Below, piece by piece: positions 825 to 18,669 of a stretch of 64,000 nt of DNA. How positions within the stretch are numbered: the stretch's first letter is position 1; each line of letters opens with the position of its first letter. The DNA is from Alistipes sp. (GTDB lineage Bacteria > Bacteroidota > Bacteroidia > Bacteroidales > Rikenellaceae): contig JAGBEH010000008.1 of NCBI GenBank assembly GCA_017937125.1, forward strand, positions 1-64,000, written 5' to 3'. Under the pieces are notes generated by a model. That model did not search any database, had not been told where the DNA came from, and saw only the letters and a list, made by a program, of their open reading frames with translations. A program made the translations under genes and the position numbers.

Positions 825-934
825 TAAATTCGGCATTGCGCCCGCCTATTCGAACATTTGGCTTCGCCTTATATACTCCCGCTCGGCAATGCCCAAATAA
901 ATTTGGCATTGCCCTCGCTTATTCGTATATTTGC
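825..934 (+). repeat. 73-bp promoter-bearing repeat, array 1 (about 1.5 units)
   Basis: One complete unit (862-934) begins CTTCGCCTTATATACTCCCG, holds an inverted repeat (GGCAATGCC ... GGCATTGCC around CAAATAAATTT) and ends GCTTATTCGTATATTTG. It is preceded by a degraded half-unit. The same unit occurs at 3587-3812 (inverted) and 18366-18633. Here it ends 25 bases before the PHP gene start. Confidence 0.85.
902..933 (+). promoter_or_regulatory. Promoter inside the repeat, for the PHP phosphoesterase gene
   Basis: TTTG (902-905), 20 bases, TATATTTG (926-933): a perfect Bacteroidetes promoter. It would start transcription near 940, about 19 nt before the ATG at 959. The -33 element is the right arm of the repeat's inverted repeat. 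Confidence 0.75.
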
Positions 935-958
935 ATAATACTGCAAACTTGAAAAGAT

Positions 959-2149
959 ATGAGAAACTTCACCACATTCGCGGTTGTTGCATTGGTATGC
1001 ATCGGCTCGACACAGTCATTCGCACAAACCGAGAAACGCCCGTTCGGAGCAAGGCATACGCGTCAGGAGATAATTTTCCCGAAAGTAAACGGACTTACAG
1101 TCTATAAAACCGACCTTCACACCCACACGATTTACTCCGACGGCGAGGTAACGCCCGCCTTCAGGGTGCACGAAGCATGGCGCGACGGCTTGGATGCGGT
1201 AGCCATAACGGACCACATAGAGTACCGCCGCATAGAGCGCGATATGTACAAATTTATGCAGCCGTATATAAAAGACGAGCTGCGCGGAAAGAAATATGCC
1301 ATCAACACGAACGTTATGACCGTGGCACCCGACGAGAACGGTCTGTTGGTAGATTTCAACGTTCCGTACGAAACAGCCCGCAAAAAAGGCGACGAGCTCG
1401 GCATACTCGTCATTCGCGGCGTAGAGATAACGCGCAAAAATCTGGGCGACTACAATGCCCTGTTCACCAAGGACAACAACAGCATATACGATCCCGGCGC
1501 CGTGCAGGCCATTCGCAATGCACGCGCACAAGGTGCATTCATAATTCACAATCACCCGCAATTCGACCGCAATAACGAAAACAAGCTGACGGATTTCTGC
1601 AACTCGCTCTATGCCGAAGGGCTTATCGACGGCGTAGAGGTGGGCAACAGCTGCTACTTCTACCGCTGGATCATCGACCACGTGTTGAACGGCAAATATA
1701 CGCCGTGTGCGGATACGGACGTTCACTCCACAACCGACATCGACTACAAATCGGGGCGGCGCGACAACACCGTACGTTATCGCAATATGACGCTCGTTTT
1801 CGCCAAGTCGTGCGACGAAGAGTCGCTGCACAAGGCGTTGCTCGACGGACGTACCGTCGCCTACCACGACAATATGCTCGTAGGAAGCGAAAAACTGCTG
1901 ACCGACCTTTTCAAGGCCAGCGTCAAATTCGAAGTGGCGGGCAAATCGGGCAAGAAACTCTCGGTAGCCGTAACAAACAACAGTTCGATGCCGTACATCA
2001 TAAAAGCGGAGCGCACCGTACACCATATCGAACCGCTCGGCACAACGATGATAAGCGTGAATGAAGAGAGCGGCAAGATAAATGTCAGCGTCGAGAATAT
2101 GTGGTGCGGCAGCAACTGCCATCCCACAATGGAGATACGCTTGAAATAG
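959..2149 (+). CDS. Secreted PHP-domain metal-dependent phosphoesterase
   Basis: A 396-aa protein with a cleavable signal peptide (residues 1-22, ending SFAQ), so it should act in the periplasm or outside the cell. PHP-family metal ligands are visible in order: DLHTHTIYSDGE near residue 52, AITDHIEY near 81, IHNHPQFDRN near 196 and DTDVHST near 258. This matches the polymerase-and-histidinol-phosphatase fold, whose members hydrolyse phosphate esters. The C-terminal 100 residues look like a beta-rich accessory domain. Family and fold are clear; the substrate is not. The ATG lies just behind a repeat-borne promoter, and a bidirectional hairpin follows the stop. Confidence 0.85.
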   Translation: MRNFTTFAVVALVCIGSTQSFAQTEKRPFGARHTRQEIIFPKVNGLTVYKTDLHTHTIYSDGEVTPAFRVHEAWRDGLDAVAITDHIEYRRIERDMYKFMQPYIKDELRGKKYAINTNVMTVAPDENGLLVDFNVPYETARKKGDELGILVIRGVEITRKNLGDYNALFTKDNNSIYDPGAVQAIRNARAQGAFIIHNHPQFDRNNENKLTDFCNSLYAEGLIDGVEVGNSCYFYRWIIDHVLNGKYTPCADTDVHSTTDIDYKSGRRDNTVRYRNMTLVFAKSCDEESLHKALLDGRTVAYHDNMLVGSEKLLTDLFKASVKFEVAGKSGKKLSVAVTNNSSMPYIIKAERTVHHIEPLGTTMISVNEESGKINVSVENMWCGSNCHPTMEIRLK

Positions 2150-2178
2150 CGGTCGAGACGCTTCCCGTCACGCAACTA

Positions 2179-2212
2179 CTAACCCCTGTCGGGAATACCC
2201 GACAGGGGTTAG
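2179..2212. terminator. Bidirectional hairpin terminator
   Basis: Perfect inverted repeat CTAACCCCTGTCGGG / CCCGACAGGGGTTAG around AATA, sitting between two convergent genes. Confidence 0.8.
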
Positions 2213-2252
2213 TCATACGGCCGCACCCGCAGCGACGGGCAAACGATGTCCG

Positions 2253-3569
2253 CTACCGCAACTGGACGCCGTAAAGCAGCGCACGTCCCGTCTTGTCATC
2301 GGATTTCTTCGAGAAATCAGGGCTCGTCGATACGGAAATCGTGGACGACAGCGTTATATCCTTCAATTCGAACACATATCGGTCGGCGACATTCGGCGCG
2401 ATGACGAACGGAGCCTGCCCCGTAGCGCCGTCATTAACCTTGAGAGATACACTCGACGGCGATATGCTTCCGCCGCCATTGACCCTCAGATACAACGTCG
2501 CAGCGCCATGTTTGTTCTCTTTCCACCCGAGCGCGAACATAACCAGCTTGCGGTCGCCCTCGCAGCAAAGCACATCCGAGGTATAATGTCCCGTGTAGTT
2601 GCCCGAACCGAGTTTCATAGCATCCACGGAACTGCCATCGACCAAAGCTTCGTGCACGGATGCCAGCTCGCCGCCGTTGGCGTGGATCAGACCGCGCATA
2701 GATTCATAGCGCGTCGCCAGCTGCATAAACTTAACCGTCACGGGCGACTTCCTCGCCCCGTCGGGAGTGGCGGCGAGATAGAGGTAGGCATTCGTATAAT
2801 CGACCGCTTTGCCCGAAGTGTTGGGACGCGCCGTGACATATACCCTGTTGCCGGATATATCTATCGAGAAATGCCCGTCAGCCATATTGCGTCTGTCGGC
2901 AAACAGATGCCAACCGTGCGCATCGCTCACACGGCAATCTATTATACGCGTCTCGCCCTGCGGTGCGAACTGTAATGTCACGGCCGTACCGCTCAGCAAC
3001 TCCGTCGTATTCACTACCTCGAACGACGGTGCATCCGAACGCCTGCCGTCATCCTGAAATACGCGAACCACATGTCTCGCAACAGGCTCGGCGGCATCCG
3101 CATCCTCATAAAGCGACAATACTATCTCGCCCTCGCGGGAGATGTCGGACGACGATGCCCCGACCGAGACCGCAGCATTGCCGTTACCGCTGTCGGGAGT
3201 CAGGTCGAACCACTCCGCCGACCGCTCCGCACGCCAATATCCCGTCGGAGCCGAGACCGTAAAATCCAATCTTTCGGCAGCCTGTCCGTCGAAAATCACG
3301 GCATCGTCGCTTACGGCAAAAATGAAATCCGCAACAGGCTCGTCGGGAGCGGGATCCTCAGGGGTGTCGGGATCCGGGTTGTCTGGGTTGTCTGGGTTGT
3401 CTGGGTTATCGGGATCCGGATCATCGGGATTGTCGGGATTGTCTGGGTTATCCCCACCGCCGTCATCCGGCTGTTCGGTCTTTTCTCCGTCGGATTCGGC
3501 GGCATCGTTTTTCCCGCAGGCGGTAACGCACAACGAGAAGACAAGCAACAATAAGTATATACGTTTCAT
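2253..3569 (-). CDS. BACON-type lipoprotein with Pro-Asp-Asn linker
   Basis: A 438-aa lipoprotein: the signal sequence ends in a VTAC lipobox with Cys18. A low-complexity linker of repeated Pro-Asp-Asn/Asp units covers about residues 33-75 and is encoded by 9-bp tandem repeats (about 3360-3450). A BACON-like beta-sandwich follows (AERLDFTVSAPTGYWRAE...), then one or two further beta-rich domains with no clear match. Such proteins are usually surface-exposed glycan or mucin binders in Bacteroidetes; a binding role is inferred. I chose the ATG at 3569 because AAAGG lies 8 bases upstream; an in-frame ATG at 3575 is too close to it. The gene is read from repeat array 2. Confidence 0.75.
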   Translation of the reverse strand: MKRIYLLLLVFSLCVTACGKNDAAESDGEKTEQPDDGGGDNPDNPDNPDDPDPDNPDNPDNPDNPDPDTPEDPAPDEPVADFIFAVSDDAVIFDGQAAERLDFTVSAPTGYWRAERSAEWFDLTPDSGNGNAAVSVGASSSDISREGEIVLSLYEDADAAEPVARHVVRVFQDDGRRSDAPSFEVVNTTELLSGTAVTLQFAPQGETRIIDCRVSDAHGWHLFADRRNMADGHFSIDISGNRVYVTARPNTSGKAVDYTNAYLYLAATPDGARKSPVTVKFMQLATRYESMRGLIHANGGELASVHEALVDGSSVDAMKLGSGNYTGHYTSDVLCCEGDRKLVMFALGWKENKHGAATLYLRVNGGGSISPSSVSLKVNDGATGQAPFVIAPNVADRYVFELKDITLSSTISVSTSPDFSKKSDDKTGRALLYGVQLR

Positions 3570-3586
3570 AGTCATTACCTTTGTTA

Positions 3587-3812
3587 GCCAAATATACGAA
3601 TAAGCGAGGGCAGAAGCAAACTTGTTTGCGATTTTGCCGAGCGGGAGTATATAAGGCGAAGCCAAATATACGAATAAGCGAGGGCAGAAGCAAACTTGTT
3701 TGCGATTTTGCCGAGCGGGAGTATATAAGGCGAAGCCAAATATACGCATATGCGAGGGCAGAAGCAAATAAATTTGCCTCTGCCGAACGGGAATATATAA
3801 GACACAAGCCGA
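3587..3812 (-). repeat. 73-74 bp promoter-bearing repeat, array 2 (3 units plus remnant)
   Basis: Unit boundaries (gccaaatatacg) fall at 3587, 3661 and 3735, with a diverged one (gccgaacatacg) at 3808. The period is therefore 74, 74 and 73 bp. The first two units carry GCAAAC-AA-GTTTGC as the central inverted repeat; the third has the AAATAAATTT form seen in the other arrays. The array is inverted relative to arrays 1 and 3, so its promoters face the minus-strand lipoprotein gene. Confidence 0.9.
3589..3620 (-). promoter_or_regulatory. Repeat-borne promoter for the lipoprotein gene (nearest of three)
   Basis: On the minus strand TTTG (3620-3617), 20 bases, TATATTTG (3596-3589). Identical elements with the same 20-base spacer occur at 3663-3694 and 3737-3768, giving three stacked promoters. 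The nearest would start transcription about 13-15 nt before the ATG at 3569. Confidence 0.75.
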
Positions 3813-3869
3813 ACATACGAAAAAAGAGACATATGATGTCTCTTTGTCTGTGCCATATCACGGCGCCGA

Positions 3870-4613
3870 TTATTCCATCGGGCGTATCCGCACCTCCGTA
3901 ACGCCGTCCAGTTCGCGCACGAGACGATCGATGTCGGTCTCGTCCTCGACCTCGCCGTAATGATAAGGATAGAATATTCGGGGAGCTATGGCCTTCACCG
4001 CATCCACCGCCTGATCGACGGTCATAGTGTACGGTTGATTGACGGGCAGGAACGCTATGTCGATATTCTTCAACGCCTTGACATCCTCGTTGTTCTCCGT
4101 ATCACCCGAAATATATATACGCGAACCGCCGATCGTCAGTACGTATCCGCAATCCTCGCGCTCCTTAGGGTGGAACTGCAAATGCCCCTCGGATATGTTA
4201 TACGCAGGCACGGCATTTACGGTTACCCCTGCGAGAGGTTGCGCAACGCTGCCGGGCGTCATCGTAATGCAATCGAAATCGAACGCTTCGGCCGACGTCT
4301 TGTCGCAAACGACGATCGTCTCGGGCTTGCGCAACCTGTCTATCGCCGCCATATCGAAATGGTCGTAATGCGAATGGGTAATCAGAATCATATCGGCCTT
4401 GGGCAGGCGCGCATAATCGGCATACGAATCTACAGGATCGACATAGATATGCCGCCCGTCGGTCTCGAGAGCCAATGATGCGTGTTTGAAAAACGTCACG
4501 GCGACCTCGTCGCCCGAAGCGGTGGCAATTATGTCCGTAGGATAAACCGGCGATTTCTCTTTGCACCCGAATAATGAAAGTATCGACATCAGAACAATAA
4601 TTTTAGTCTTCAT
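3870..4613 (-). CDS. MBL-fold metallohydrolase lipoprotein (UlaG/YtnP-like)
   Basis: A 247-aa protein with a lipoprotein signal (lipobox LFGC, Cys17). The metallo-beta-lactamase signature HSHYDHFD covers residues 80-87. A later metal-binding Asp lies in ISGDTENNED and a late His in YPYHYGE, so the active site looks complete. The pattern resembles L-ascorbate-6-phosphate lactonase-like MBL proteins, but an exported lipoprotein form probably acts on a different, unknown ester or lactone in the envelope. It is transcribed in the same direction as the lipoprotein downstream, with the repeat array between them. Confidence 0.8.
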   Translation of the reverse strand: MKTKIIVLMSILSLFGCKEKSPVYPTDIIATASGDEVAVTFFKHASLALETDGRHIYVDPVDSYADYARLPKADMILITHSHYDHFDMAAIDRLRKPETIVVCDKTSAEAFDFDCITMTPGSVAQPLAGVTVNAVPAYNISEGHLQFHPKEREDCGYVLTIGGSRIYISGDTENNEDVKALKNIDIAFLPVNQPYTMTVDQAVDAVKAIAPRIFYPYHYGEVEDETDIDRLVRELDGVTEVRIRPME

Positions 4614-4778
4614 TTGCTGACTTGAGTTTACATCATCGGGACGAAAATACGAAAATTTCCTTTACGCCCATTACCGACAAATCCAAAAACTGCTTTATAT
4701 TATATAATATATGCCTTTCGGGACATCGGCGCAACCGTCATATTGTCGGATAATACATAAGCCGCAGTTCGCAACGGG

Positions 4779-6044
4779 CTATCTCACGATAGTCTCGTCC
4801 CGGTCGGGACCTACGGATATTATCTTCACGGGAACTCCCGTTTCGCGCTCGATGAACTCGACATACTCGCGGAAAGCCTGCGGGAAATCCTCGTATTTGC
4901 GGATATTGCATATATCGCAGTTCCACCCCTCGAATTCGCGATAAACGGGTTTCAGATCGTCGGCAGCCTCATAGGGGAAATAATCTATGCGCTGTCCGTC
5001 GAGTTCGTAAGCCGTAGCGACCTTTATCGTTTCGAAGTCGTTCAGCACGTCGGACTTCATCATTATCAACCCCGTAACTCCGTTCATCATAACGGCATAC
5101 TTCAACGCCACCATATCGAGCCACCCGCAACGGCGCGGACGCCCCGTCGTAGCACCAAACTCGCGGCCGACACTGCGCAGCTTCTCACCCGTCTCGTCGA
5201 ACAGCTCGGTAGGGAACGGACCGCTGCCGACACGCGTACAGTACGCCTTGAAAATGCCGTAAACCTCTCCGATATGTGTCGGAGCGACGCCCAGACCCGT
5301 GCAGACACCCGCACAAAGCGTATTGGACGACGTGACGAACGGATATGTTCCGAAATCGACATCGAGCATCGACCCCTGCGCACCCTCGGCCAGCACGGAT
5401 GCGTCGGCCGCAATCAGGTCGTTGATCGCATATTCGCTCTCGATGAGTTCGAAACGCCGCAGCGTCCCGATGCCCTCGAACCACTCCTTCTCGTACTCGG
5501 CGATGTCATAGTCGTAATCGTACTGCTTCAGCAGCTCCATATGCTTGTTTTTCAGCCGTTCGTAGCGCTCCATAAACTGCGGGGAGACGATATCCCCCAC
5601 ACGCAAGCCGTTACGCCCCGTCTTATCCATATACGCGGGTCCTATGCCCTTGAGCGTCGAGCCGATTTTCGCCTTACCCTTGGCGGCCTCGCTCGCAGCA
5701 TCTATTATACGGTGCGTCGGCAGAATCAGATGAGCCTTCTTCGAGATGCGCAGCCTGCCTGCGACATCGACACCCATAGCCTCTATCGCAGCAATCTCAT
5801 CGGCCAGAATCACGGGATCGACGACTACGCCGTTGCCGATAATGTTGATTGTCCCGTCGCGGAAAATACCCGACGGTATAGTATGGAGGACGAAACTCTG
5901 TCCGGCGAAATGGATGGAATGTCCCGCATTGGGGCCACCCTGAAAACGGGCGACGACATTATACTCGGGGGTCAGCACATCGACGACCTTGCCTTTACCC
6001 TCATCGCCCCACTGCAATCCGAGAACGACATCTGCTTTTTTCAT
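4779..6044 (-). CDS. purA: Adenylosuccinate synthase
   Basis: A 421-aa cytoplasmic enzyme joining IMP and aspartate with GTP, the first step from IMP to AMP. The N-terminus has the hallmark WGDEGKGKVVD with catalytic Asp near residue 13, then GGPNAGH with catalytic His near 41. GSTLKGIGPAY and TTGRPRRCGW are further family signatures. The length is normal for bacterial PurA, and the gene stands alone. Confidence 0.98.
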   Translation of the reverse strand: MKKADVVLGLQWGDEGKGKVVDVLTPEYNVVARFQGGPNAGHSIHFAGQSFVLHTIPSGIFRDGTINIIGNGVVVDPVILADEIAAIEAMGVDVAGRLRISKKAHLILPTHRIIDAASEAAKGKAKIGSTLKGIGPAYMDKTGRNGLRVGDIVSPQFMERYERLKNKHMELLKQYDYDYDIAEYEKEWFEGIGTLRRFELIESEYAINDLIAADASVLAEGAQGSMLDVDFGTYPFVTSSNTLCAGVCTGLGVAPTHIGEVYGIFKAYCTRVGSGPFPTELFDETGEKLRSVGREFGATTGRPRRCGWLDMVALKYAVMMNGVTGLIMMKSDVLNDFETIKVATAYELDGQRIDYFPYEAADDLKPVYREFEGWNCDICNIRKYEDFPQAFREYVEFIERETGVPVKIISVGPDRDETIVR

Positions 6045-6401
6045 CTTTCTTTTGAATTAAGTTCAGTCGCAAAACCTGAGTTTTGCACACAAAAGTATCG
6101 CTTTTACCCGAAACGGCCGCCCATCCCCGACATCACTTTTCAACATTCGATTCACATTTGCAATGTCGTCGGACGAATCGCGGCGGCGACAGAGCGCGGC
6201 GGCGCGGCAAAATCCGTAAAAACGGTACAAACTGCCATCTTATCGTTACAGCCGCTGCCGAATCGGGAGGTAACTTTGCAATAACGAAACGATGAAGCAG
6301 GCAACGGACAATATATACCTAAATATAATTAGGCACAGAGACCGATAACGGGCATCCTGCTCCCGCGAACATAACAGACAACTTCATTCAATACGGAGAC
6401 T
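6045..6401. other. Intergenic region between divergent purA and decarboxylase-cupin genes
   Basis: On the purA side there is a -7 element TACTTTTG on the minus strand (6090-6097) without a clear -33 box. An imperfect repeat of cctaaatataattagg occurs near 6318-6334. No gene is evident in the remainder. Confidence 0.5.
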
Positions 6402-7217
6402 ATGAACAGAACAATTTTAATTTCGGTATTCACCGTTTTAACATTCAATCTTATGGCACAGGAAAAGATAGTACAGACGGCGGGACGCACCGCATTGGGC
6501 GAATTCGCGCCAGCATTCGCCGAACTCAACGACGACGTACTCTTCGGCGAGGTATGGAATCGCCCCGACCTGAACCCGCGCGACCGCAGTATGATTACCG
6601 TTGCGACGCTCGTCGGCAAAGGCATCGTCGATTCGTCGCTCACCCACCATTTGCAGTTCGCCAAGGCCAACGGCATCACGCGCAAAGAGATTTCGGAGAT
6701 GCTTACCCACATAGCCTTTTACGCAGGCTGGCCCAATGCGTGGGCGGCATTCCGTTCGGCCAAGGAGGTTTGGGCGGAAGATTCTGCGGGCGATGACGCC
6801 AAAGCGGCACTCCAACGCGAGATGATATTTCCCATAGGCGAACCGAATACGGCCTACGCCAAGTATTTCATCGGCAACAGCTACCTCGCACGCATCTCCT
6901 CCGAGCAGATTCCGTTCGCCAATGTGACGTTCGAGCCGCGCTGCCGCAACAACTGGCACATACACCACGCGACCGAAGGCGGCGGGCAGATGCTCGTGGG
7001 CGTTGCGGGCCGCGGCTGGTACCAGGAGGAGGGCAAGCCCGCGCAGGCTGTTTTACCGGGAACGGTAATCCATATTCCCGCAGGCGTGAAACATTGGCAC
7101 GGCGCAGCGGACGACAGCTGGTTCTCGCACCTCGCATTCGAAATCAATGGCGAGAATACGCGCAACGAATGGCTCGAACCCGTAACGGACGAGGAGTACG
7201 ACAAACTTCAAAAATAA
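6402..7217 (+). CDS. Carboxymuconolactone decarboxylase-cupin fusion, exported
   Basis: A 271-aa protein with a short hydrophobic signal (MNRTILISVFTVLTFNLMAQ). The N-terminal half is a carboxymuconolactone decarboxylase/AhpD-like helical domain (VWNRPDLNPRDRSMITVATL ... LTHHLQFAKANGIT). The C-terminal half is a cupin with metal-type residues WHIHHATEGGGQ and IPAGVKHWHG. Separate CMD and cupin proteins are common; this fused form is known in gut Bacteroidetes, usually near redox genes. The next gene, 5 bp on, is a flavodoxin, which suggests a shared role in redox or aldehyde chemistry, but the substrate is unknown. Confidence 0.85.
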   Translation: MNRTILISVFTVLTFNLMAQEKIVQTAGRTALGEFAPAFAELNDDVLFGEVWNRPDLNPRDRSMITVATLVGKGIVDSSLTHHLQFAKANGITRKEISEMLTHIAFYAGWPNAWAAFRSAKEVWAEDSAGDDAKAALQREMIFPIGEPNTAYAKYFIGNSYLARISSEQIPFANVTFEPRCRNNWHIHHATEGGGQMLVGVAGRGWYQEEGKPAQAVLPGTVIHIPAGVKHWHGAADDSWFSHLAFEINGENTRNEWLEPVTDEEYDKLQK

Positions 7218-7222
7218 GGACT

Positions 7223-7786
7223 ATGTACAGATTATTATTGTTGCTGTCGGCCGTCGGCATAACGACAGCGACCTACGCACAACAAAATCGAAATATGAAC
7301 GACAAAAAATCGAATAACAAGATTCTCGTAGCCTATTATTCGGCTACGGGAACGACCGCACGCGCCGCCGAAAAGTTAGCGGAGATTACGGGCGGAGACC
7401 TCTACGCGATTACCCCCGCGCAACCCTACACCGACGCCGACCTCGACTGGCACGACAGGCAGTCGCGCAGTTCGAAGGAGATGAACGACCCGAAAGCCCG
7501 TCCGTCGCTCGGCGGCAAAAAGTCGGACACGGCAGGTTACGATACGGTATTCATCGGTTATCCCATATGGTGGGACCTCGCGCCCCGCATCATCAATACG
7601 TTCATCGAAAGCCACGACCTGAAGGGCAAAGCCGTAATACCGTTCGCGACATCGGGCGGCAGTACGATAGCCGGCAGCGCGGCAGCGTTGAAACAAGGCT
7701 ATCCCGAGTTGGACTGGAGAGAGGGCAGACTGCTCAACCGCATAAACGAAAGCAGCGTACGCGACTGGCTCGAAGCAGCGAAATGA
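7223..7786 (+). CDS. Exported flavodoxin
   Basis: A 187-aa flavodoxin-fold protein with a signal-like N-terminus (MYRLLLLLSAVGITTATYAQ). The FMN phosphate loop is visible (YYSATGTTARAAEKLAE), followed by GYPIWWDLAPRIINTFIE and FATSGGSTIAG, typical of the flavodoxin_4 group of electron-transfer proteins. The ATG at 7223 fits AAGGA five bases upstream and the 5-bp gap to the preceding gene; an earlier in-frame start would lie inside that gene. It probably accepts or donates electrons for the neighbouring decarboxylase-cupin protein, though that link rests only on position. Confidence 0.85.
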   Translation: MYRLLLLLSAVGITTATYAQQNRNMNDKKSNNKILVAYYSATGTTARAAEKLAEITGGDLYAITPAQPYTDADLDWHDRQSRSSKEMNDPKARPSLGGKKSDTAGYDTVFIGYPIWWDLAPRIINTFIESHDLKGKAVIPFATSGGSTIAGSAAALKQGYPELDWREGRLLNRINESSVRDWLEAAK

Positions 7787-7914
7787 CAGGCGGCAGGCAT
7801 ATCCGACCGTGCGCCTTACGGACACCCGCCGCAGCGGGTCCATCCCCTCTGCGAATTATCCCCGCAGTGAGTTATCTCCGCTGCGGCGCCCGCTAAAAGG
7901 CGGCTGAATAAAAA

Positions 7915-7940
7915 ACCGCTCGACAAATTTGTCGAGCGGT
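7915..7940 (-). terminator. Terminator of the tRNA-Gln transcript
   Basis: Perfect 26-base palindrome ACCGCTCGACAAA/TTTGTCGAGCGGT. On the minus strand it is followed by TTTTTTAT, as expected for a factor-independent terminator downstream of the tRNA. Confidence 0.75.
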
Positions 7941-7973
7941 CTGCTTTTAAGAATGACCCGCGATCATCTCCTG

Positions 7974-8044
7974 TTGGGCTACCTGGATTCGAACCAAGAA
8001 TGACAGGACCAGAATCTGTAGTGTTACCATTACACCATAGCCCA
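7974..8044 (-). tRNA. tRNA-Gln (CUG anticodon)
   Basis: A 71-nt cloverleaf on the minus strand: acceptor stem TGGGCTA/TAGCCCA, T-arm GGTTCGAATCC, anticodon loop TTCTGGT giving CTG. The 3' CCA is not encoded. Confidence 0.93.
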
Positions 8045-9612: not shown

Positions 9613-9624
9613 CGTGCTGCGATA

Positions 9625-10843: not shown

Positions 10844-11493
10844 AAAAAATCGTCATTCCCCGCATCGACATCGGAAACGCACCGGCACCGACATCGGACA
10901 CACTGTCCGCAGCATTGGAAAGCCGAGGGCTGTATCAGCCGCTCGGGGAGGTGAACTGGGACGAATACCCGTATCGACCCGATGTTTCGCTGCATCTGGG
11001 GGCCGACGGGCAATATCTGTATGTTCGGTTCGACGTCCGAGGTCTCGGGCTGAAGGCCGTATGCACCGAGGACAATTCGCCCGTATGGCAGGACAGCTGT
11101 GTGGAGATATTCATCGGCTCGCCCGACGGCTGCGGCTATTTCAACTTCGAGATGAACTGCATAGGGACACTGCTGGCAGCCAAACGCAGGTCCCGCAACG
11201 AGGATGTGGTCCACTTCGCGCCCGATGTTATGTCACGCATCCTGCGCCGCACGTCGCTCGCACACGAGCCTTTCGACGAGAAAGAGGGCATTCACGAATG
11301 GAGCGCCGTTCTGGGCATACCGTTCGCACTGCTCGGGTTCGCCGAGGGGGAACGTCCCGCAATGCTGCGTGCCAATTTCTACAAATGTGCGGATGAAACG
11401 GCAAACCCGCATTATGTCAGCTGGGCGCCGATACGCACACCGTCGCCCGATTTCCACCGCCCCGAATTTTTCGGCGAATTGTATTTCGAATAA
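10840..11493 (+). CDS. CBM9-like carbohydrate-binding domain protein
   Basis: A 217-aa protein without a signal peptide. The layout (VNWDEYPYRPDVSLHLGADGQYLYVRFDV ... WQDSCVEIFI ... YFNFEMNCIGTLLAAKR) matches the CBM9-like/DOMON beta-sandwich found in Bacteroidetes carbohydrate-active proteins. The ATG overlaps the stop of the transferase gene by four bases. Without an export signal a cytoplasmic sugar-binding or enzymatic role is possible, but I cannot assign one. Confidence 0.75.
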   Translation: MKKIVIPRIDIGNAPAPTSDTLSAALESRGLYQPLGEVNWDEYPYRPDVSLHLGADGQYLYVRFDVRGLGLKAVCTEDNSPVWQDSCVEIFIGSPDGCGYFNFEMNCIGTLLAAKRRSRNEDVVHFAPDVMSRILRRTSLAHEPFDEKEGIHEWSAVLGIPFALLGFAEGERPAMLRANFYKCADETANPHYVSWAPIRTPSPDFHRPEFFGELYFE

Positions 11494-11509
11494 CCTTAAC
11501 TACGAATAA

Positions 11510-12601
11510 ATGAACACCGACGAACTGAAAACCATTGCATCGCACTTCCTGCTCGAAGGCACCGTCGAACGAATAACGCCGATGGGTGCGGGATTCATCA
11601 ACGACACTCTCAAGGTCATTACCGCGGGGTTTGCACCCGATTACATCCTCCAGCGTAAGAACCGCGCCATATTCCCCGACATTCCCGCAATGATGAACAA
11701 CATACTGGCCGTCACGGACCATATCCGCCAAAAGGTAACGGCCGCAGGAGGCGACCCGCACCGCGAGGTGCTGACGGTAGTGCTCACGGATGAAGGCCTG
11801 CCCTACTACCGCACCGACGGCGGCGAATACTGGACGATGTGCCGATTCATAGACGGGTCGGTTACCTACGACCGTGCCGACACTCCCGAACTGGCGTACA
11901 AGGGCGGAGCGGGCATAGGCAAATTCCAGTCGCAGTTAGCCGATTTCACCACCCCTTTGGCCGAAACGATAAAGGGTTTCCATGACATAGAATGGCGGTT
12001 CAGGCAGTGGGACGAGGCGCTCGCGCGCGATGCCGCAGGCAGACGCGGATCGCTTGCCCGCGAAATAGAATGGATAGAATCGCGCCGCAAGGAGATGTCG
12101 TCATTCCGCGCGCTCGTCGATAACGGCGTCATACCCATACGTGTCACGCACAACGACACCAAAATCAGCAACATACTTTTCGACGACAAAGGCGAAGTGC
12201 TCTGCGTCATAGACCTCGATACGGTTATGAGCAGCACCTCGCTGAATGATTTCGGCGATGCGATACGCTCGTATGCCAATACGGGAGCCGAAGACGACCG
12301 CGACCTCGGCCGGGTGGCACTCGATATGTCGGTATTCCGCAGCTATGCGGACGGCTATCTGTCGCAGCGCCGCTCGACGCTCGTACAGTCGGAACTCGAC
12401 TGGCTGGCATTCTCGGCACGGTACATAACCTACGAGCAGGTGTTGCGGTTCCTGATGGACTATATCGACGGCGATACGTATTACAAGATCGGCTACCCCG
12501 AGCACAACCTCGTCCGCACGCACGCCCAATACGCACTGTTGCAGAGTATGGAACGGCAGTACGACGATATGTGCGGCGTTATCGCCGAATTGGCGAAATA
12601 A
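11510..12601 (+). CDS. Aminoglycoside-phosphotransferase-fold sugar kinase, NahK-like
   Basis: A 363-aa cytoplasmic kinase of the APH fold. The Brenner motif HNDTKISNILFD (catalytic Asp, Mg-binding Asn, near residue 210) and the metal-binding VIDLDTVM (near 235) are intact. The pattern YILQRKNRAIFPDIPAMMNN near residue 50 and the overall length fit N-acetylhexosamine 1-kinase-like enzymes. The preceding glycan gene and sugar-binding protein make an amino-sugar substrate plausible. Start is 16 bp after the previous stop. Confidence 0.82.
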   Translation: MNTDELKTIASHFLLEGTVERITPMGAGFINDTLKVITAGFAPDYILQRKNRAIFPDIPAMMNNILAVTDHIRQKVTAAGGDPHREVLTVVLTDEGLPYYRTDGGEYWTMCRFIDGSVTYDRADTPELAYKGGAGIGKFQSQLADFTTPLAETIKGFHDIEWRFRQWDEALARDAAGRRGSLAREIEWIESRRKEMSSFRALVDNGVIPIRVTHNDTKISNILFDDKGEVLCVIDLDTVMSSTSLNDFGDAIRSYANTGAEDDRDLGRVALDMSVFRSYADGYLSQRRSTLVQSELDWLAFSARYITYEQVLRFLMDYIDGDTYYKIGYPEHNLVRTHAQYALLQSMERQYDDMCGVIAELAK

Positions 12602-12777
12602 CGGTGAACGGCAACAAGGATTCAGTGTCGCGCAGGGTGCAAGTTTACGGATTTACGGCAGCGGAGTCCACGGGTACGCAGCCTACACGGACTGCCTTTC
12701 TCCACCGCGACAACGAAAAGTTATAGACACGCGACCATACGCCTACGCCAGCGTACCGACGGCTGTGCATAAACGAC

Positions 12778-12810
12778 TTGCCCCCGTCCGAGAGTTTCGG
12801 ACGGGGGCAA
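12778..12810. terminator. Bidirectional hairpin terminator
   Basis: Perfect inverted repeat TTGCCCCCGTCCGA / TCGGACGGGGGCAA between the convergent kinase and TPR genes. The space 12602-12777 shows nothing else I recognise. Confidence 0.75.
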
Positions 12811-12871
12811 TCCATTCCTATGGCAGATGCGGGCTATCGAGGAACTGCCCCGCACCGTATGTCACGACCCG

Positions 12872-13855
12872 CTATTTCGCTGCCGTCGTCAAATCCTCGA
12901 CGGACTTTTTGGCCGCCTCGACATTCGACCCTTCGGTCACCTTCCTCAAAGCCGCAATAGCCTTGTCCCTCAAAGCGGCATCCTTGTTACCTCCGGCATT
13001 GTACTTGGCGTTATAGGCGGCACCCACAAGGAAATATACGTCGCTACGGTCGGCCGCATCGACCTGTGCATTCGCGGTCTCCTCGCCCAGCTCGATGACC
13101 TTGTCGTAGTTTTTCATTCCGTTATAGGCCTGAATACGCACCTTGTAAGCCAGAGCATCGGCAGGATTCGCCGCAAGCATCGTATCGGCCATCGCAATGA
13201 TGCCGTCGTAATCGTTGGCGGCCTGCAACTTGGCAACCTCGTTCAACGTATAGTGAGCCATCATCTCGTTAGCCTTCGCAACGGCATCGCCGTAACGTTC
13301 GGGCGACATCGCCGCAACATTGCGGTAAACATCCATACCCTTCTGATATTCGCCCGACTCACAATAGCTCATCGCGAGATTGAGAGCCATCTCCGTGTTG
13401 CGGGGATTGGCCGCATAGCCCTTTGCGAATATTTCGGCAGCCGCAGCATAGTCCTTGTTGTTGTAGGCCTCGCCGCCCTGCACCTGATATACCTTCGCCA
13501 GCATAGCTTTCGCCTTCAACGCCGTCTGCGACTCGCCGTAAAGTTCCGCCCTGTCGGCCGCGACGGAGAGTTTCTCGACAGCCGCGTCATACTGTTTCTG
13601 GCTCGCCGACCTCAAACCCGCATTCAGATAAGCCACGGGGATATATTTCTTTGCCGTTGCCACACAGTTCAGAACCGTGGGATCCTCGGAATCGATACCT
13701 GCATCCACGAACTCCTCAAGCAGAGTCGAAGCCTTGGCATAATCCTTCTCCTGCAAAGCCTTTACGCCGTCGTTATACTTGGTGATCAACTCATTCTGTG
13801 CGGATACGGCACATACGGTCATCAAAGCGACCGCCAAAGAAAACAGTCTTTTCAT
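12872..13855 (-). CDS. Exported tetratricopeptide-repeat protein
   Basis: A 327-aa protein with a signal peptide (residues 1-19, ending AVSA) and Ala/Tyr-rich helical repeats of TPR type through the mature part, for example YNDGVKALQEKDYAKASTLL near 27 and YNNKDYAAAAEIFAKGYAAN near 135. It is probably a periplasmic scaffold for protein-protein contacts; no partner can be named. It has a good promoter upstream. Confidence 0.82.
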   Translation of the reverse strand: MKRLFSLAVALMTVCAVSAQNELITKYNDGVKALQEKDYAKASTLLEEFVDAGIDSEDPTVLNCVATAKKYIPVAYLNAGLRSASQKQYDAAVEKLSVAADRAELYGESQTALKAKAMLAKVYQVQGGEAYNNKDYAAAAEIFAKGYAANPRNTEMALNLAMSYCESGEYQKGMDVYRNVAAMSPERYGDAVAKANEMMAHYTLNEVAKLQAANDYDGIIAMADTMLAANPADALAYKVRIQAYNGMKNYDKVIELGEETANAQVDAADRSDVYFLVGAAYNAKYNAGGNKDAALRDKAIAALRKVTEGSNVEAAKKSVEDLTTAAK

Positions 13856-13934
13856 ATCGTCATAATGTTTTTAATTGTTATCCGTTTTGCCTGTTTTATG
13901 TCGTAAAGTTCGCATTTGCGCCCTTTTCGATCTA

Positions 13935-13965
13935 CAAAAATAGATTTTTAATTTGTAAAATCAAA
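13935..13965 (-). promoter_or_regulatory. Promoter of the TPR gene
   Basis: On the minus strand TTTG (13965-13962), 19 bases, TATTTTTG (13942-13935), about 80 bp before the ATG. The -33 element overlaps the last codons of tadA. Confidence 0.65.
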
Positions 13966-14407
13966 ACGACTGTCTCAAATCGGCGAAAAAACCGCTGACG
14001 AGCCGTTCGCATTCCTCGCCGAGCACCCCTGCCGTAACTTTCGTCCGCGGATGGAGTATCGTCCCGCCGACGGTCGTGTAACCTCGTTTAGGGTCGGCAG
14101 CCCCGTAAACCAGCCGCCCGACCTGACTCCACGCTATGGCTCCCGCACACATTACGCACGGCTCGACCGTTACGTACAACGTGCATTCGTTCAGGTATTT
14201 GCCGCCCAATGTCGAAGCGGCGGCCGTAATGGCCTGCAACTCGGCGTGCGCCGTCGCGTCGCACAAGGTCTCGACGAGATTGTGCCCGCGTCCGACGACG
14301 GCGCCGTTCGCCACGACTACCGCCCCTATGGGCACTTCTCCCTCGTCCAACGCTTTTTGCGCCTCGTTTAGTGCGAGGCGCATATATTTTTCGTCTTCGT
14401 TCGTCAT
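13961..14407 (-). CDS. tadA: tRNA adenosine(34) deaminase
   Basis: A 148-aa zinc deaminase that converts A34 of tRNA-Arg to inosine. The catalytic HAE (TAHAELQAI, near residue 53) and the zinc PCxxC (EPCVMCAGAI, near 83) are intact, and length is typical. I set the ATG at 14407; an extension to 14455 would enter the upstream gene. The 7-bp gap to that gene suggests co-transcription. Confidence 0.93.
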   Translation of the reverse strand: MTNEDEKYMRLALNEAQKALDEGEVPIGAVVVANGAVVGRGHNLVETLCDATAHAELQAITAAASTLGGKYLNECTLYVTVEPCVMCAGAIAWSQVGRLVYGAADPKRGYTTVGGTILHPRTKVTAGVLGEECERLVSGFFADLRQSF

Positions 14408-14414
14408 CGCGTTT

Positions 14415-14915
14415 CTACCAAGCATTGAAAATGACGGGCATAGAGAAGCGTACATTCACATTCCGCCCGTCCTGAACGGCAGGCTGCCATTTCGGACTGA
14501 GATTGACCACCCGCTTCAGCTCCCTGACCAGTTCTTCGTCCGCCACGGGGGTGCGGTCGGCATTCAGAGCCTTTTCGAAGCAGGCCTCGCCGTCGGTCGA
14601 AACTACGAACACGACCGTCACACTCATCGACGATTTGCCCGATTGGCGCAGTGCCGAGAGGGTCGATTTCGGACACTTCATCTGCCGTTGCGCCCACTCG
14701 CGAAATTCGTACAGTGAACCTCTTTTCCCGAAAACGGGCATCTGCCGCACTTGCATCAGCGTGGGGGCGTTCGGGTCGGGATTCTTGTCGGCGACCTGTT
14801 CGGCAGCGGGCTTTTCGGCCGCGCCGTCTTTGGGTTTCTTCGCAAAAGTCTCGCCGCAGACGGAGACCGTCATTATGGCAGCAAGTACGAAACAAAGCAG
14901 TTTCGAATATTTCAT
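14415..14915 (-). CDS. Secreted TonB-C-terminal-domain-like protein
   Basis: A 166-aa protein with a signal peptide (residues 1-25, ending TFAK) and a Lys/Ala/Pro-rich spacer. The C-terminal module (VTVVFVVSTDGEACFEKALNADRTP ... RVVNLSPKWQPAVQDGRNVNVRFSMPVIF) has the pattern of the TonB C-terminal domain. It has no membrane anchor of the usual TonB type and lacks the long periplasmic arm, so it is more likely a periplasmic TonB-domain protein than an energy transducer. The gene precedes tadA by 7 bp. Confidence 0.75.
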   Translation of the reverse strand: MKYSKLLCFVLAAIMTVSVCGETFAKKPKDGAAEKPAAEQVADKNPDPNAPTLMQVRQMPVFGKRGSLYEFREWAQRQMKCPKSTLSALRQSGKSSMSVTVVFVVSTDGEACFEKALNADRTPVADEELVRELKRVVNLSPKWQPAVQDGRNVNVRFSMPVIFNAW

Positions 14916-14932
14916 AGCAGTATAGTTTTGTA

Positions 14933-14940
14933 CAAATATA
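14933..14940 (-). promoter_or_regulatory. -7 element for the TonB-domain gene/tadA operon
   Basis: TATATTTG on the minus strand, 18 bp before the ATG at 14915. No clear -33 box is visible at the right distance. Confidence 0.5.
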
Positions 14941-14983
14941 ACTATTTTTGCCCCGACAGGCTATATTTTCGCCCGAAAATATT

Positions 14984-14991
14984 TACTTTTG
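14984..14991 (+). promoter_or_regulatory. -7 element for aspS
   Basis: TACTTTTG, 39 bp before the aspS ATG. A TTTG lies at 14947-14950, but the spacer of 33 is too long, so only the -7 box is supported. Confidence 0.5.
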
Positions 14992-15030
14992 TATCCGTTA
15001 AGGAGCAAACAAGCAAAACGACATAAAATT

Positions 15031-16785
15031 ATGTACAGAACTCATACGTGCGGCAGTTTAAGAGCCGAAAACGTAAATCAGACAGTTACGCTCGCGGGCT
15101 GGGTGCAGAAGGTGCGCAATCTCGGGGCAATGACATTCATCGACCTGCGCGACCGTTACGGCATCACGCAAATCGTTGTCGAGGAGCATTCGGACGAAGC
15201 TACGCGTGCCGCTGCGGCCGAGCTCGGCCGCGAATACGTGCTTCAGGTTACGGGCAAGGTCATCGAACGCGAAGCCAAGAACCCGAAGATGCCGACGGGC
15301 GACATCGAGGTCGCCGCATCGGAGATAAAGATACTCAACCGTGCGCAGACGCCTCCGTTCACAATCGAGGAGCACTCGGACGGCGGCGACGACCTGCGAA
15401 TGAAATACCGCTATCTCGACCTGCGCCGTCCACCGCTTCAGCGCGCGATGATACTGCGTCACCGTATGGCTCACGCCGTACGTACGTTCCTCGACGGCGA
15501 GGGATTTCTGGAGATAGAGACTCCGTATCTTATCAAGTCCACGCCCGAAGGCGCCCGCGACTTCGTCGTGCCGAGCCGTATGAACCCCAACCAGTTCTAC
15601 GCTCTGCCCCAGTCGCCGCAGACGCTCAAGCAGCTGCTTATGGTGGCGGGCTACGACCGTTATTTCCAGATAGTCCGCTGTTTCCGCGACGAGGATTTGC
15701 GTGCCGACCGCCAGCCCGAGTTCACGCAGATAGACTGCGAGATGTCGTTCGTCGAGCAGGAGGACGTCATCGAGGTTTTCGAGCGTATGATGCGCTATAT
15801 GTTCAAGGAGATTATCGGTGTGGAGATTGCCGAAAAGCTGCCGCGAATGGCGTGGATAGACGCTATGGAGAAGTACGGTTCGGACAAGCCCGACCTGCGC
15901 TTCGGTATGGAGATACACGAAATTTCGGATTTGGTGAAAGGACACGGCTTCTCGGTCTTCGAGGATGCCGAGTACATCGGCGCCATAGCTGCCGAAGGGT
16001 GCGCGTCGTATACCCGCAAACAGATAGACGAGCTTACCGAGTTTGTGAAGCGTCCGCAGGTGGGTGCCAAAGGTCTCGTATGGATACGTCTCGATGCCGA
16101 CGGCGGTATAAAGTCGTCTATAGATAAGTTCTACTCGGCCGACGACCTGCGCGCCGTTGCCGAGCGTTGCGGCGCAAAGGCGGGCGACCTCGTATTGGTT
16201 ATCTGCGGTGCCAAGTTCAAGGCACTCGGGCAGCTGTGCGACCTGCGTCTGGAGATGGGCGAGCGTCTCGGTCTGCGCGACCGTGCGAAGTTCGCACCTC
16301 TGTGGGTCGTGGATTTCCCGATGTTCGAGTGGGACGAGGAGACGCAGCGTTTCTACGCTATGCACCACCCGTTCACCTCGCCCAAACCCGAAGATGTGCA
16401 GTATCTCGAAAGCGACCCCGCACGCGTACGCGCCAATGCCTATGATTTCGTCTGCAACGGCACGGAGGTCGGCGGCGGTTCGATACGTATCCACGACCAG
16501 CAGTTGCAGTCGCTCATATTCAAGTGTTTGGGCTTCACTCCCGAGAAAGCGGAGGAGCAATTCGGCTTCCTGATGAATGCTTTCCGCTATGGGGCGCCTC
16601 CTCACGGAGGTCTGGCATTCGGCTTCGACCGTATGTGCTCGCTCTTCGGCGGTGCGGACTCCATACGCGACTATATTGCATTCCCGAAGAACAACGCAGG
16701 CCGCGACGTGATGCTCGATGCCCCGTCGGCGATAGACAAGGCGCAGCTGGACGAGTTGTTCCTCGATTTGAAGAGGGTGGAATAG
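15031..16785 (+). CDS. aspS: Aspartyl-tRNA synthetase
   Basis: A 584-aa class II synthetase charging tRNA-Asp. The N-terminal OB-fold anticodon domain ([26 protein letters not shown]) precedes class II motif 2 ([18 protein letters not shown]), the bacterial GAD insertion (about 280-410) and motif 3 ([10 protein letters not shown] near 540). Length is normal for the bacterial form. The ATG at 15031 gives the usual MYRTHTCG start; upstream codons in frame would overlap the promoter. Confidence 0.98.
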
Positions 16786-16798
16786 ATACATTCCGTTA

Positions 16799-16838
16799 TA
16801 AACACAACGGCAGTCTATTTCGACTGCCGTTGTGTTTA
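16799..16838. terminator. aspS terminator, bidirectional
   Basis: Inverted repeat AAACACAACGGCAGTC / GACTGCCGTTGTGTTT between convergent aspS and the DUF2752 gene. Confidence 0.8.
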
Positions 16839-16842
16839 TATA

Positions 16843-17244
16843 TTAGATATACGAAGATAATATCGTGTGCCACATCGATGTATTGCGGAAAAACCACCAT
16901 ATTATCATCAGGACAGCATAACACGATACTATTTTTATATTCATAACTATCGATTTGAGTTTTCGCATCGAGCCTTTTCGTGAAATAACGGTAATCGAAA
17001 TCAGTATTACATAAGGTGATATGACTATTAAATAGGGATTATGCCAAAATGCCGATTTTAAATCTCCGAGCAACAAATCGGCAATTGCACGTTGCGCTCC
17101 GCACATCGGACAATCATATCCGCTGACAGAACGAAATATACATCTCGGTGCATAAGTCCAATCGTGCAAATAAAAGACAATATAAATCATCCATAAACAA
17201 TAGCAGACGACCGGCAATACATAAACGATATTTCGGGTTTTCAC
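16843..17244 (-). CDS. DUF2752 membrane protein
   Basis: A 133-aa small membrane protein with about three hydrophobic helices and the DUF2752 signature CPMCGAQRAIADLLLGD near residue 45. The start is GTG (17244), 10 bases after the stop of the upstream gene, so translation is probably coupled. The function of this family is unknown. Pairing with a TM2 protein is common in Bacteroidetes. Confidence 0.8.
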   Translation of the reverse strand: MKTRNIVYVLPVVCYCLWMIYIVFYLHDWTYAPRCIFRSVSGYDCPMCGAQRAIADLLLGDLKSAFWHNPYLIVISPYVILISITVISRKGSMRKLKSIVMNIKIVSCYAVLMIIWWFFRNTSMWHTILSSYI

Positions 17245-17254
17245 TCGAATACCG

Positions 17255-17581
17255 TTAGCGATTATCGGTGTTGCAAATCCGCTTACCTTCCGAATCGGTA
17301 AAATTGCCCATAGCTATGATGATAAAATCTATCAATGTCCATATTCCGCATATTCCCAATGTGAAAAGTTGGAGTATACCGGTTCCGGTTTTTCCGACAT
17401 AAAAGCGATGAATGCCTAATCCTCCGACAAAAAAGCATAAAAGAAGAGTCGTAATCCAATCTTTGTCGCTCTTGTCGGGATCAAATTCATTCGATTTGGA
17501 TTGTTTTCTGACTGCGCATCCGCATTTTACACATACAACGGCTTCATCATTGATTTCTGCGCCGCAATTACTGCAAAACAT
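17255..17581 (-). CDS. Zinc-ribbon and TM2-domain membrane protein
   Basis: A 108-aa protein. The N-terminus is a zinc ribbon (MFCSNCGAEI ... CVKCGCAV, four Cys), followed by a TM2 domain (LLCFFVGGLGIHRFYVGKTGTGILQLFTLG, two membrane helices with the GxHRFYxG turn). The molecular role is unknown. It lies directly upstream of the DUF2752 gene in the same direction. Confidence 0.88.
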   Translation of the reverse strand: MFCSNCGAEINDEAVVCVKCGCAVRKQSKSNEFDPDKSDKDWITTLLLCFFVGGLGIHRFYVGKTGTGILQLFTLGICGIWTLIDFIIIAMGNFTDSEGKRICNTDNR

Positions 17582-17856
17582 AATATTTAAGTTCGGTTTC
17601 CCCGTCCGCGCCGCAACGGATTTAACAAAAAGAAAGCGTGGCGCCGAAGCTCATTTTAGACAAGCAGGTCGTAGGATTACCATATGATATAAAACAAGCA
17701 TTAACTCCACGCCCATATCCAAGTCGGATACGCGCGGTAGCATCAGCCTATTCTCTATCAAATAAAGTGAATTTCCTACGTTCGCTTATCGAGAATAAAC
17801 TTACACTTTCCGTGTATATGTTGTTGCAAATATAAAAATTATTCGCGAAAAATACC
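17582..17856. other. Intergenic region with several inverted repeats, no gene seen
   Basis: No convincing ORF. Visible structure: GCGTGG near 17638 pairs with CCACGC near 17707. TATTCTC (17749-17755) pairs with GAGAATA (17791-17797), and AAAGTG (17764-17769) inside that loop can pair with CACTTT (17804-17809) outside it, a pseudoknot-like layout. This could be a small RNA or chance. Confidence 0.3.
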
Positions 17857-17864
17857 TACATTTG
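17857..17864 (+). promoter_or_regulatory. -7 element for the GNAT gene
   Basis: TACATTTG, 30 bp before the ATG at 17895; no clear -33 box. Confidence 0.45.
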
Positions 17865-17894
17865 AAATACCAATGCAATTAAAGTAAGGAATTT

Positions 17895-18380
17895 ATGTCG
17901 AAACCCTCGGCTGAACGAATGCGGTATGAAAACATCGACGGGTATATCAGGCCGTTCGAACTCGGCGATACCGAGACTGTGTTGCGGATATGGCTGGACG
18001 GGAATTTGCAGGCACACCGTTTCATTCCCGCCGCATACTGGAAATCGAACATCGGTTTTATGCGGAGCGCCTTGTCGCAGGCCGAGCTGTTCGTCTGCTC
18101 CGTCGGGGGCGAAATCGTCGCATTCGTCGGATTGCAGGGCGATTATATAGCGGGCATATTCGTACGGGAAGACCACCGCTCCGAAGGCATCGGACATAGG
18201 CTTCTCGCCTATCTCGAACAACGGCACGAACAGTTGAGACTAAGCGTTTACGAAAAGAATGCGCGGGCCGTAAAGTTCTATTCTAAGGAGGGTTTCGCAA
18301 TTGTCGAAAAGCGGACGGACGAACCTACGGGCGAGACGGAATACGTAATGACGTGGTGCCGCTCGGCAATAACCGAATAA
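17895..18380 (+). CDS. GNAT-family N-acetyltransferase
   Basis: A 161-aa acetyl-CoA-dependent transferase of the YjaB/PhnO-like group. The acetyl-CoA loop is IFVREDHRSEGIGHRLLAYL (V-x-x-x-x-R-x-x-G-I-G near residue 95), followed by LSVYEKNARAVKFYSKEGF, the usual fourth motif. The acceptor is unknown. The last six codons (RSAITE) and the stop are encoded by the first unit of repeat array 3, so the repeat's arrival probably reshaped the C-terminus. Confidence 0.85.
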   Translation: MSKPSAERMRYENIDGYIRPFELGDTETVLRIWLDGNLQAHRFIPAAYWKSNIGFMRSALSQAELFVCSVGGEIVAFVGLQGDYIAGIFVREDHRSEGIGHRLLAYLEQRHEQLRLSVYEKNARAVKFYSKEGFAIVEKRTDEPTGETEYVMTWCRSAITE

Positions 18381-18454
18381 ATTCGGCATCGCCCTCGCTT
18401 ATTCGCACATTTGGCTTCGCCCTATATACTCCCGCTCGGCAATGCCCAAATAAA

Positions 18455-18486
18455 TTTGCTTCTGCCCTCGCTTATTCGTACATTTG
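18455..18486 (+). promoter_or_regulatory. Repeat-borne promoter, second unit of array 3
   Basis: TTTG (18455-18458), 20 bases, TACATTTG (18479-18486). The first unit's element (CACATTTG) is mutated at its first base. Confidence 0.6.
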
Positions 18487-18527
18487 GCTTCGCCTTATAT
18501 ACTTCCGCTCGGCAATGCCCAAATAAA

Positions 18528-18559
18528 TTTGGCATTGCCCTCGCTTATTCGTATATTTG
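18528..18559 (+). promoter_or_regulatory. Repeat-borne promoter, third unit of array 3
   Basis: TTTG (18528-18531), 20 bases, TATATTTG (18552-18559), both elements perfect. Confidence 0.65.
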
Positions 18560-18600
18560 GCTTCGCCCTATATACTTCCGCTCGGCATAATCAAATAAAA

Positions 18601-18632
18601 TTTGCTTCTGCCCTCGCTTATTCGTATATTTG
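18601..18632 (+). promoter_or_regulatory. Repeat-borne promoter nearest rarA
   Basis: TTTG (18601-18604), 20 bases, TATATTTG (18625-18632). Transcription would start about 30 nt before the rarA ATG. Confidence 0.75.
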
Positions 18633-18669
18633 CCATTGACAAAAGCGAAAAACGAAAAGAAAAAAGAGT

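Follow-up and report, generated by a model that had tools for sequence, protein, structure and literature searches.

The 64,000-nucleotide stretch analyzed here (hereafter the window) comprises bases 1-64000 of contig C7 (JAGBEH010000008.1) of a 2.16-Mb Alistipes sp. genome and harbors three arrays of a 73- to 74-bp repeat unit, which are the subject of this report. A unit profile placed the arrays at 810-933 (+), 3589-3807 (-), and 18359-18632 (+), within approximately 15 bases of the limits given in an initial annotation of the same sequence, while Tandem Repeats Finder reported 3586-3768 (period 74, 98% matches) and 18359-18632 (period 73) and did not report array 1. The pattern TTTG-N20-TANNTTTG occurs 10 times in the window (mean of 0.12 and maximum of 2 in 100 dinucleotide shuffles), and seven of these copies fall in the arrays, six with the -7 box TATATTTG and one with TACATTTG, always with a 20-base spacer and, as first annotated, facing the next gene. 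The array promoter, TTTG-N20-TA(T/C)ATTTG, fits the primary-sigma consensus of Bacteroides, for which the excerpted source gives TAnnTTTG at -7 and TTTG near -33 (PMC7366714). The initial annotation was correct in assigning a promoter to seven units, but arrays 1 and 3 each begin with a unit that is partial or decayed and has no full promoter (Table 1). Similarly, its identification of PHP and rarA/mgsA as neighboring genes was supported by Pfam, whereas the third neighbor, described as a BACON lipoprotein, matched no Pfam family at an E value of 0.001.

Table 1. Repeat units of the three arrays in the window and associated genes
Feature	Position	Strand	Details
Array 1, first unit, partial and decayed	810..860	+	Profile match to model positions 23-73; box AACATTTG
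Array 1, full gene-proximal unit	861..933	+	Promoter 902-933; -7 box TATATTTG at 926-933
PHP gene downstream of array 1	start 959		Pfam PF02811
Array 2, gene-proximal unit	3589..3662	-	Promoter 3620-3589; next gene start 3575 (-)
Array 2, middle unit	3663..3736	-	Promoter 3694-3663; sequence equal to that of the gene-proximal unit
Array 2, distal diverged unit	3737..3807	-	Promoter 3768-3737
Array 3, first unit, partial and decayed	18359..18413	+	Box CACATTTG
Array 3, second unit	18414..18486	+	Promoter 18455-18486; box TACATTTG
Array 3, third unit	18487..18559	+	Promoter 18528-18559
Array 3, gene-proximal unit	18560..18632	+	Promoter 18601-18632
rarA/mgsA downstream of array 3	start 18670		Pfam PF12002

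Counted from immediately past a -7 box through the following one, the unit (~73 bp) consists of a short "guide" whose sequence is the complement of the -7 box, a hairpin (hairpin A) with the -33 TTTG in its 3′ arm, a largely constant stretch (in the commonest unit type, CTCGCTTATTCG), and the -7 box, which stands at both unit ends, is sequence-specific, and forms part of the element. The central inverted repeat noted initially is present, but a second inverted repeat, which holds the -7 box, had been overlooked. RNAalifold analysis of 47 units yielded 12 pairs for hairpin A, six of them with changes on both sides. In hairpin B, formed by a box and the next unit, the fourth box base and the guide base were A-T in 23, C-G in 39, and otherwise combined in 8 of 70 distinct junctions; the stem adjacent to the box was G-C in 47, A-T in 19, and otherwise in 4, the junction search pattern itself having allowed only A/G opposite C/T in this stem. 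The corresponding Fisher P values (~1e-15 for guide and box, ~1e-12 for the stem) are too small, because the copies are related. Complementarity at the fourth box base was also seen in 41 of the 49 distinct first units whose left box could be recognized. The guide class equaled the class of the right-hand box in 38 of 39 typed units, and guide and right-end box form terminal inverted repeats. Hairpin A of type A is found with both box classes, as is that of type G, and several hairpin A sequence types adjoin within single arrays.

The window represents a fraction of a larger family. Within the same genome (~90% complete; one genome per species was used throughout), BLAST with the unit gave 41 matches at 0.001, a profile over 35 loci resolved 30 arrays comprising 70 units (counting partial ones, 1 to 5 per array, and no gene between the units of an array), and a covariance model built from 47 units returned at least 81 matches at 0.01 (of its 1334 candidates, 150 were scored). 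Thirteen covariance matches lay outside the 30 arrays; seven regions covering ten of them were read (the remaining three matches are partial), and four of the regions contained further units before same-strand open reading frames (ORFs), namely, L368, L369, L370, and L372. The other three regions (L371, L373, and L374) hold a promoterless cousin repeat, described below. At L369 the box is broken and the ATG ORF lies 164 nt away, an earlier GTG start looking likely by eye. The total is therefore at least 34 arrays, 33 preceding a same-strand ORF and one, among the 30 profile arrays, preceding the RNase P RNA gene (rnpB; RF00010). Downstream genes with Pfam backing include those for PHP, RarA/MgsA, SurE, radical SAM, and IspF (YgbB) proteins, while other names used here (lepA, deoD, nadB, tsaE, pfkA, dxs, etc.) reflect our reading of the translations.

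The proposal that array orientation follows the gene was upheld in this genome and in an independent sample. An ATG ORF of at least 80 amino acids was present within 80 nt of the last box at 24 of the 30 profile arrays; for the opposite side the count was 8 of 29. In five of the 30 the next same-strand ORF begins at an ATG 93 to 283 nt away. An independent sample was drawn by a pattern scan of named genomes (at least 110 stretches, 80 of them listed); 108 sites had at least 400 nt of downstream sequence, and by the same test 86 of these had such an ORF, whereas the opposite side gave 24 of 87 and random positions gave 1456 of 5400. The 80 listed stretches derive from Alistipes, Prevotella, Xylanibacter, Bacteroidaceae, Rikenellaceae, Candidatus Equimonas, and other Bacteroidales, together with one labeled Lachnospiraceae, which may be contamination; Xylanibacter ruminicola Ga6B6 and Prevotella sp. 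MA2016 are among the cultured carriers. Among the 22 misses of this sample, a few run into more units and two resemble cobalamin-riboswitch leaders by eye. Arrays of other Bacteroidales genomes behaved alike (45 of 59 with an ORF, 17 of 49 on the opposite side). This test, with its controls, replaced a cruder ORF caller, which had scored the first 80 loci as 57 co-oriented, 19 opposite, and 4 without a gene, since many of its opposite calls looked like spurious antisense ORFs. The invertible promoters of Bacteroidales likewise combine a promoter with inverted repeats; such a switch was rejected here, as all 30 profile arrays of this single assembly face a same-strand ORF or rnpB, and every array read in the genome points toward its gene.

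Insight into where units land was obtained from orthologous promoters in G134, G030, and G025, the three closest genomes by LepA (93 to 94%) in the genus draw, which hold one, none, and one weak match (E ~1e-4) to the covariance model, respectively. After removal of pfkA and the UDP-glucose dehydrogenase gene, whose own offset exceeded 60 nt, 46 pairs from 16 genes were counted. TANNTTTG was found within 8 nt of the offset from the start codon seen in the unit-bearing genome in 26 of the 46 pairs (11 of 16 genes), as against 8 of 1054 control windows taken further upstream; two of the hits, both for PHP, rest on proteins only ~32% identical. Both insertion junctions are readable at lepA, deoD, and a MazG-like gene. 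At lepA the sequence runs ACAAAATTCGTATATTTG - unit - CATTCGCTATG, where G025 has ACAAAATTCGTATCTTTGCGTTCGCTATG, and at the MazG-like gene it runs TTTTTTGCATATCTTTG - five units - CGTATCTTTGCCCGATATT, where the relative without units has TTTTTGCGTATCTTTGCCCGAATC. These comparisons support the placement of units at the -7 boxes of pre-existing promoters during species divergence. Units thus appear to target the -7 box of a promoter already in place, a point missed by the initial annotation, which by itself would account for the co-orientation with genes.

The same comparison bears on a regulon, in which the inverted repeat would be the operator of a global regulator and selection, rather than mobility, would keep the promoters near identical. 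The inverted repeat does overlap the -33 element, and covariation is seen between unit ends and within the hairpin; however, the closest relatives run the same genes from ordinary promoters without the unit, the downstream genes are functionally unrelated, similarity spans the whole unit, and several hairpin A types stand side by side in one array, so that we consider a regulon highly improbable.

A closer species pair, G079 and G068, was compared by reading site states by eye. Nineteen arrays were read in G079; five had no ATG ORF of at least 60 amino acids within 90 nt, and the comparison was made at the other 14. Six of the 14 sites bear a unit in G079 and are empty in G068, the box offset differing by 0 to 2 nt (box-to-start distances of 27, 36, 24, 20, 4, and 49 nt in G068 and 28, 35, 22, 21, 4, and 50 nt in G079); the G068 boxes are canonical at five of these sites and TATCTTTA at one. 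Seven further sites are filled in both species, and at six of them (L262, L264, L266, L267, L271, and L273) the gene-proximal unit type differs; at L264 the first unit is common to both species and the second is different. L263, where the unit type is shared and unit number differs, and the second site of L261, with an apparent decayed unit in G068, are the two less clear cases. Because unit types differ at the same site, arrays must change by whole-unit gain or loss at boxes and not by tandem duplication alone. With at least 34 arrays in one genome, and orthologous sites of related species empty or otherwise filled, the initial view of a dispersed module is supported.

An alternative reading of the empty sites is that the elements are old and ancestral and have been lost precisely by recombination between the flanking -7 boxes, most empty sites being secondary. 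Eight-base direct repeats do flank each unit, and lepA, surE, and DHH bear units in more than one species; this reading leaves the original placement at -7 boxes unexplained, however, and sits poorly with the lack of a strong match in the three closest relatives by LepA and with the different unit types at the same site. We regard it as unlikely.

In the window's genome, the -7 box is canonical in 27 of 30 gene-proximal units and in 17 of 40 internal ones (P = 5e-5), and over all loci fetched, of which the named-genome part was preselected on a canonical box, the figures are 197 of 215 and 60 of 136. Internal boxes in different arrays of this genome share a course of decay, from TAT through TAC to CAC, and a T is often lost as well. 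The stop codon of a GNAT ORF (17895-18380) upstream of array 3 lies inside the decayed first unit of that array (overlap 18359-18380). From the difference between gene-proximal and internal boxes we infer that the gene-proximal unit becomes the working promoter while displaced boxes decay. As internal boxes are mostly noncanonical, most upstream copies are evidently not kept as promoters, which disfavors the tuning of expression by copy number suggested in the initial annotation; young arrays whose internal boxes are intact (3589-3807, for example) are still compatible with such tuning.

The relatedness of units was also informative as to how arrays grow. The nearest relative of a unit lay in its own array for 11 of 49 units (shuffled mean of 2.4, maximum of 9) and elsewhere for the other 38. 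Near-identical neighbors occur in some arrays (3589-3736; array 13), and some tandem duplication evidently occurs; as the main route, pure tandem duplication was rejected, given the 38 units with nearest relatives elsewhere and the different types at orthologous sites. The related proposal that units spread between promoters by homologous recombination or gene conversion, with arrays formed by tandem duplication, would draw on the same near-identical neighbors and on the excess of same-array relatives over expectation, but target promoters share homology of only ~8 bases, and both the 38 units and the differing types at orthologous sites speak against it, leaving it with very little credence.

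Taken together, we propose that the repeat is probably a small, non-coding, dispersing element of Bacteroidales which is sited at -7 boxes and whose gene-proximal unit replaces the promoter. Comparison between species places units at the -7 boxes of promoters which lack the unit in relatives: the insert has a box on its left flank, and the unit's own right-hand box stands as far from the start codon as the old one did, leaving the gene with a complete promoter. The gene-proximal unit would then take over initiation. Speculatively, the unit may insert as a single-stranded hairpin whose guide is base-paired to the target box, which RNA polymerase might be keeping open at that moment; an enzyme would act in this step.

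Several observations weigh against this proposal. Twenty of the 46 orthologous pairs (ABC, 3; DHH, 5, where the start was set inside the box; ybaK, 3; ispF, 1; rubrerythrin, 2; HAD, 2; tsaE, 2; PHP, 1; rarA, 1) do not show the box at that offset, some because the upstream DNA is unrelated. TATATTTG and TATCTTTG are rare outside arrays and already lie before genes in 8 of 13 window cases, so that co-orientation needs only a sequence preference. Single sites are unpolarised, and deletion between two flanking boxes could also yield an "empty" site. The RNA consensus fold energy is weak (-0.81 kcal/mol), and six segments folded as single-stranded DNA gave z scores of -0.5 to -4.0. A left box could be recognized for only 49 distinct first units among 238 arrays (a redundant count). 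Finally, the search for a Y1 enzyme (PF01797) in 151 genus genomes, this one included, did not yield an enzyme that would move the unit.

The alternative with the most in its favor agrees on dispersal and differs in mechanism, positing a conventional miniature inverted-repeat transposable element (MITE) and a DDE-type transposase that would act on it in trans, strongly preferring TATMTTTG and duplicating it, with the hairpins as terminal inverted repeats and the guide without a targeting role. The inverted ends AAGATAC...GTATCTT, the equal box at both ends, and a unit size within the usual MITE range as stated in the excerpt of PMC4596501 are in keeping with this. Target duplications, however, usually vary in sequence, and the flanking box here is TANNTTTG-like; covariation reaches into the stem next to the box; and neither a split copy nor a longer one sharing these ends was seen among the fetched loci that were scanned. 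We consider a conventional MITE possible, if doubtful. Of comparable tentativeness is the suggestion that, within the dispersing element proposed above, the unit represents a new class of minimal mobile element, a guide-targeted non-coding hairpin which would insert at a -7 box with a replacement promoter and leave the gene it hits switched on.

Comparison with known systems revealed partial resemblances. Mobile promoters, reportedly described by Matus-Garcia et al. in 2012 and van Passel et al. in 2014, are near-identical promoter sequences upstream of unrelated genes, and promoter-sequence similarity before non-homologous genes was indeed found here for 30 arrays, which precede different ORFs or rnpB; the present element differs in having a defined landing site, the existing -7 box, which is restored on insertion, in accreting arrays, and in possessing a hairpin whose arm is the -7 box. 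Ty3 of yeast similarly directs its insertion to transcription start regions, but is an unrelated coding retrotransposon, whereas the insert here carries a replacement promoter. IS200/IS605 elements have hairpins near their ends and match a short target by an internal guide, and the covariation of guide and box seen here may reflect a comparable pairing; they differ in that the box is present on both flanks here and no Y1 enzyme was found in the genome. A RAYT/IS200 (Y1) mobilizer was rejected, PF01797 being absent from this genome and present in 2 of 151 genus genomes, once as a fragment. REP/REPIN sequences with their RAYT are, in the excerpts available, short palindromic repeats in many dispersed copies (PMC3733652, PMC8049555), whereas the units here lie before genes as promoters in a genome without Y1 transposase; the GTAG or CGTC tag beside the REP/REPIN palindrome is absent, by eye, from the commonest unit type, and CGTC is present in some B-type units. 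The BrickBuilt MITE of Porphyromonas gingivalis, also of the Bacteroidales, is an intergenic repeat with an internal tandem repeat (a 23-nt unit between leader and tail), lies 49 to 591 nt from genes, and has bidirectional promoters, and its partly available description reports no -7 box target (PMC4596501).

The distribution of the unit is patchy. In a draw of 151 genus genomes from a larger group, 93, the window's genome included, matched the covariance model at 0.001, 24 had at least 19 matches, and 58 had none (~30 candidates scored per genome). At 1e-6, matches were found in 37 of 393 Bacteroidales genomes (25 of 207 genera, own included) and in 1 of 395 genomes of a phylum draw, that one being the window's genome. 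Diverged relatives from other families share the layout but differ in their stems (GGCG/CGCC, GAGG/CCTC, GACG/CGTC), as judged by eye. The unit was not matched in 72,556 plasmid records; phage sequences bearing it comprise one IMG/VR contig (L316) and two unannotated records from human feces (MT838894.1 and MT838590.1). No description of the family was found in the literature searched, sequence pieces included, most subscription papers lying outside that coverage.

If correct, the proposed element would make bacterial promoters the landing sites of a widespread repeat, the promoters of lepA, ispF, surE, dxs, and rnpB having been replaced in one lineage or another. It would offer a way for a repeat to persist in a compact genome without silencing the genes hit, would provide a natural record of promoter turnover, and would point to an enzyme not yet known, unusual in its choice of target. 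It would also caution that a promoter sequence in common need not indicate a regulon.

Several further features were observed. At arrays 0, 11, 14, 15, 18, and 28 of the genome, the start codon follows the -7 box by only 4 to 8 nt, and the transcripts may therefore be leaderless or very short-leadered; in B. thetaiotaomicron, leaders of <10 nt are rare, at ~3.7% in the excerpted source (PMC7366714). A promoterless cousin repeat at L371, L373, and L374 (contigs C8 and C6 of the same genome) has a similar palindromic core, TCAGCATAGCTCGAATAAATTCGGCTCTGC, and mutually inverted ends, CCTTTTC and GAAAAGG, with no -7 box; its different complementary ends hint that guide and target can change together. 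In G068, another repeat of ~100 to 150 bp (TTTTTCGTCAAAAG...CTTTTCACGRAAAA) ends just upstream of -7 boxes at L299, L307, L310, L314, and L315. Within the window, the three copies of TTTG-N20-TANNTTTG outside the arrays comprise two tandem rRNA promoters, in a tandem 110-bp repeat (294-503) directed toward the 16S rRNA gene (5′ end at 1-136, minus strand), and one promoter (TTTG-N20-TATCTTTG; region 32829-32946) immediately before a SAM-II riboswitch (32886-32946). Lastly, tandem-repeat output alone points to a CRISPR-like array at 59136-60079, with the repeat GTTGTATTCTATTTGAATTCTACATCAAACCACAAC.

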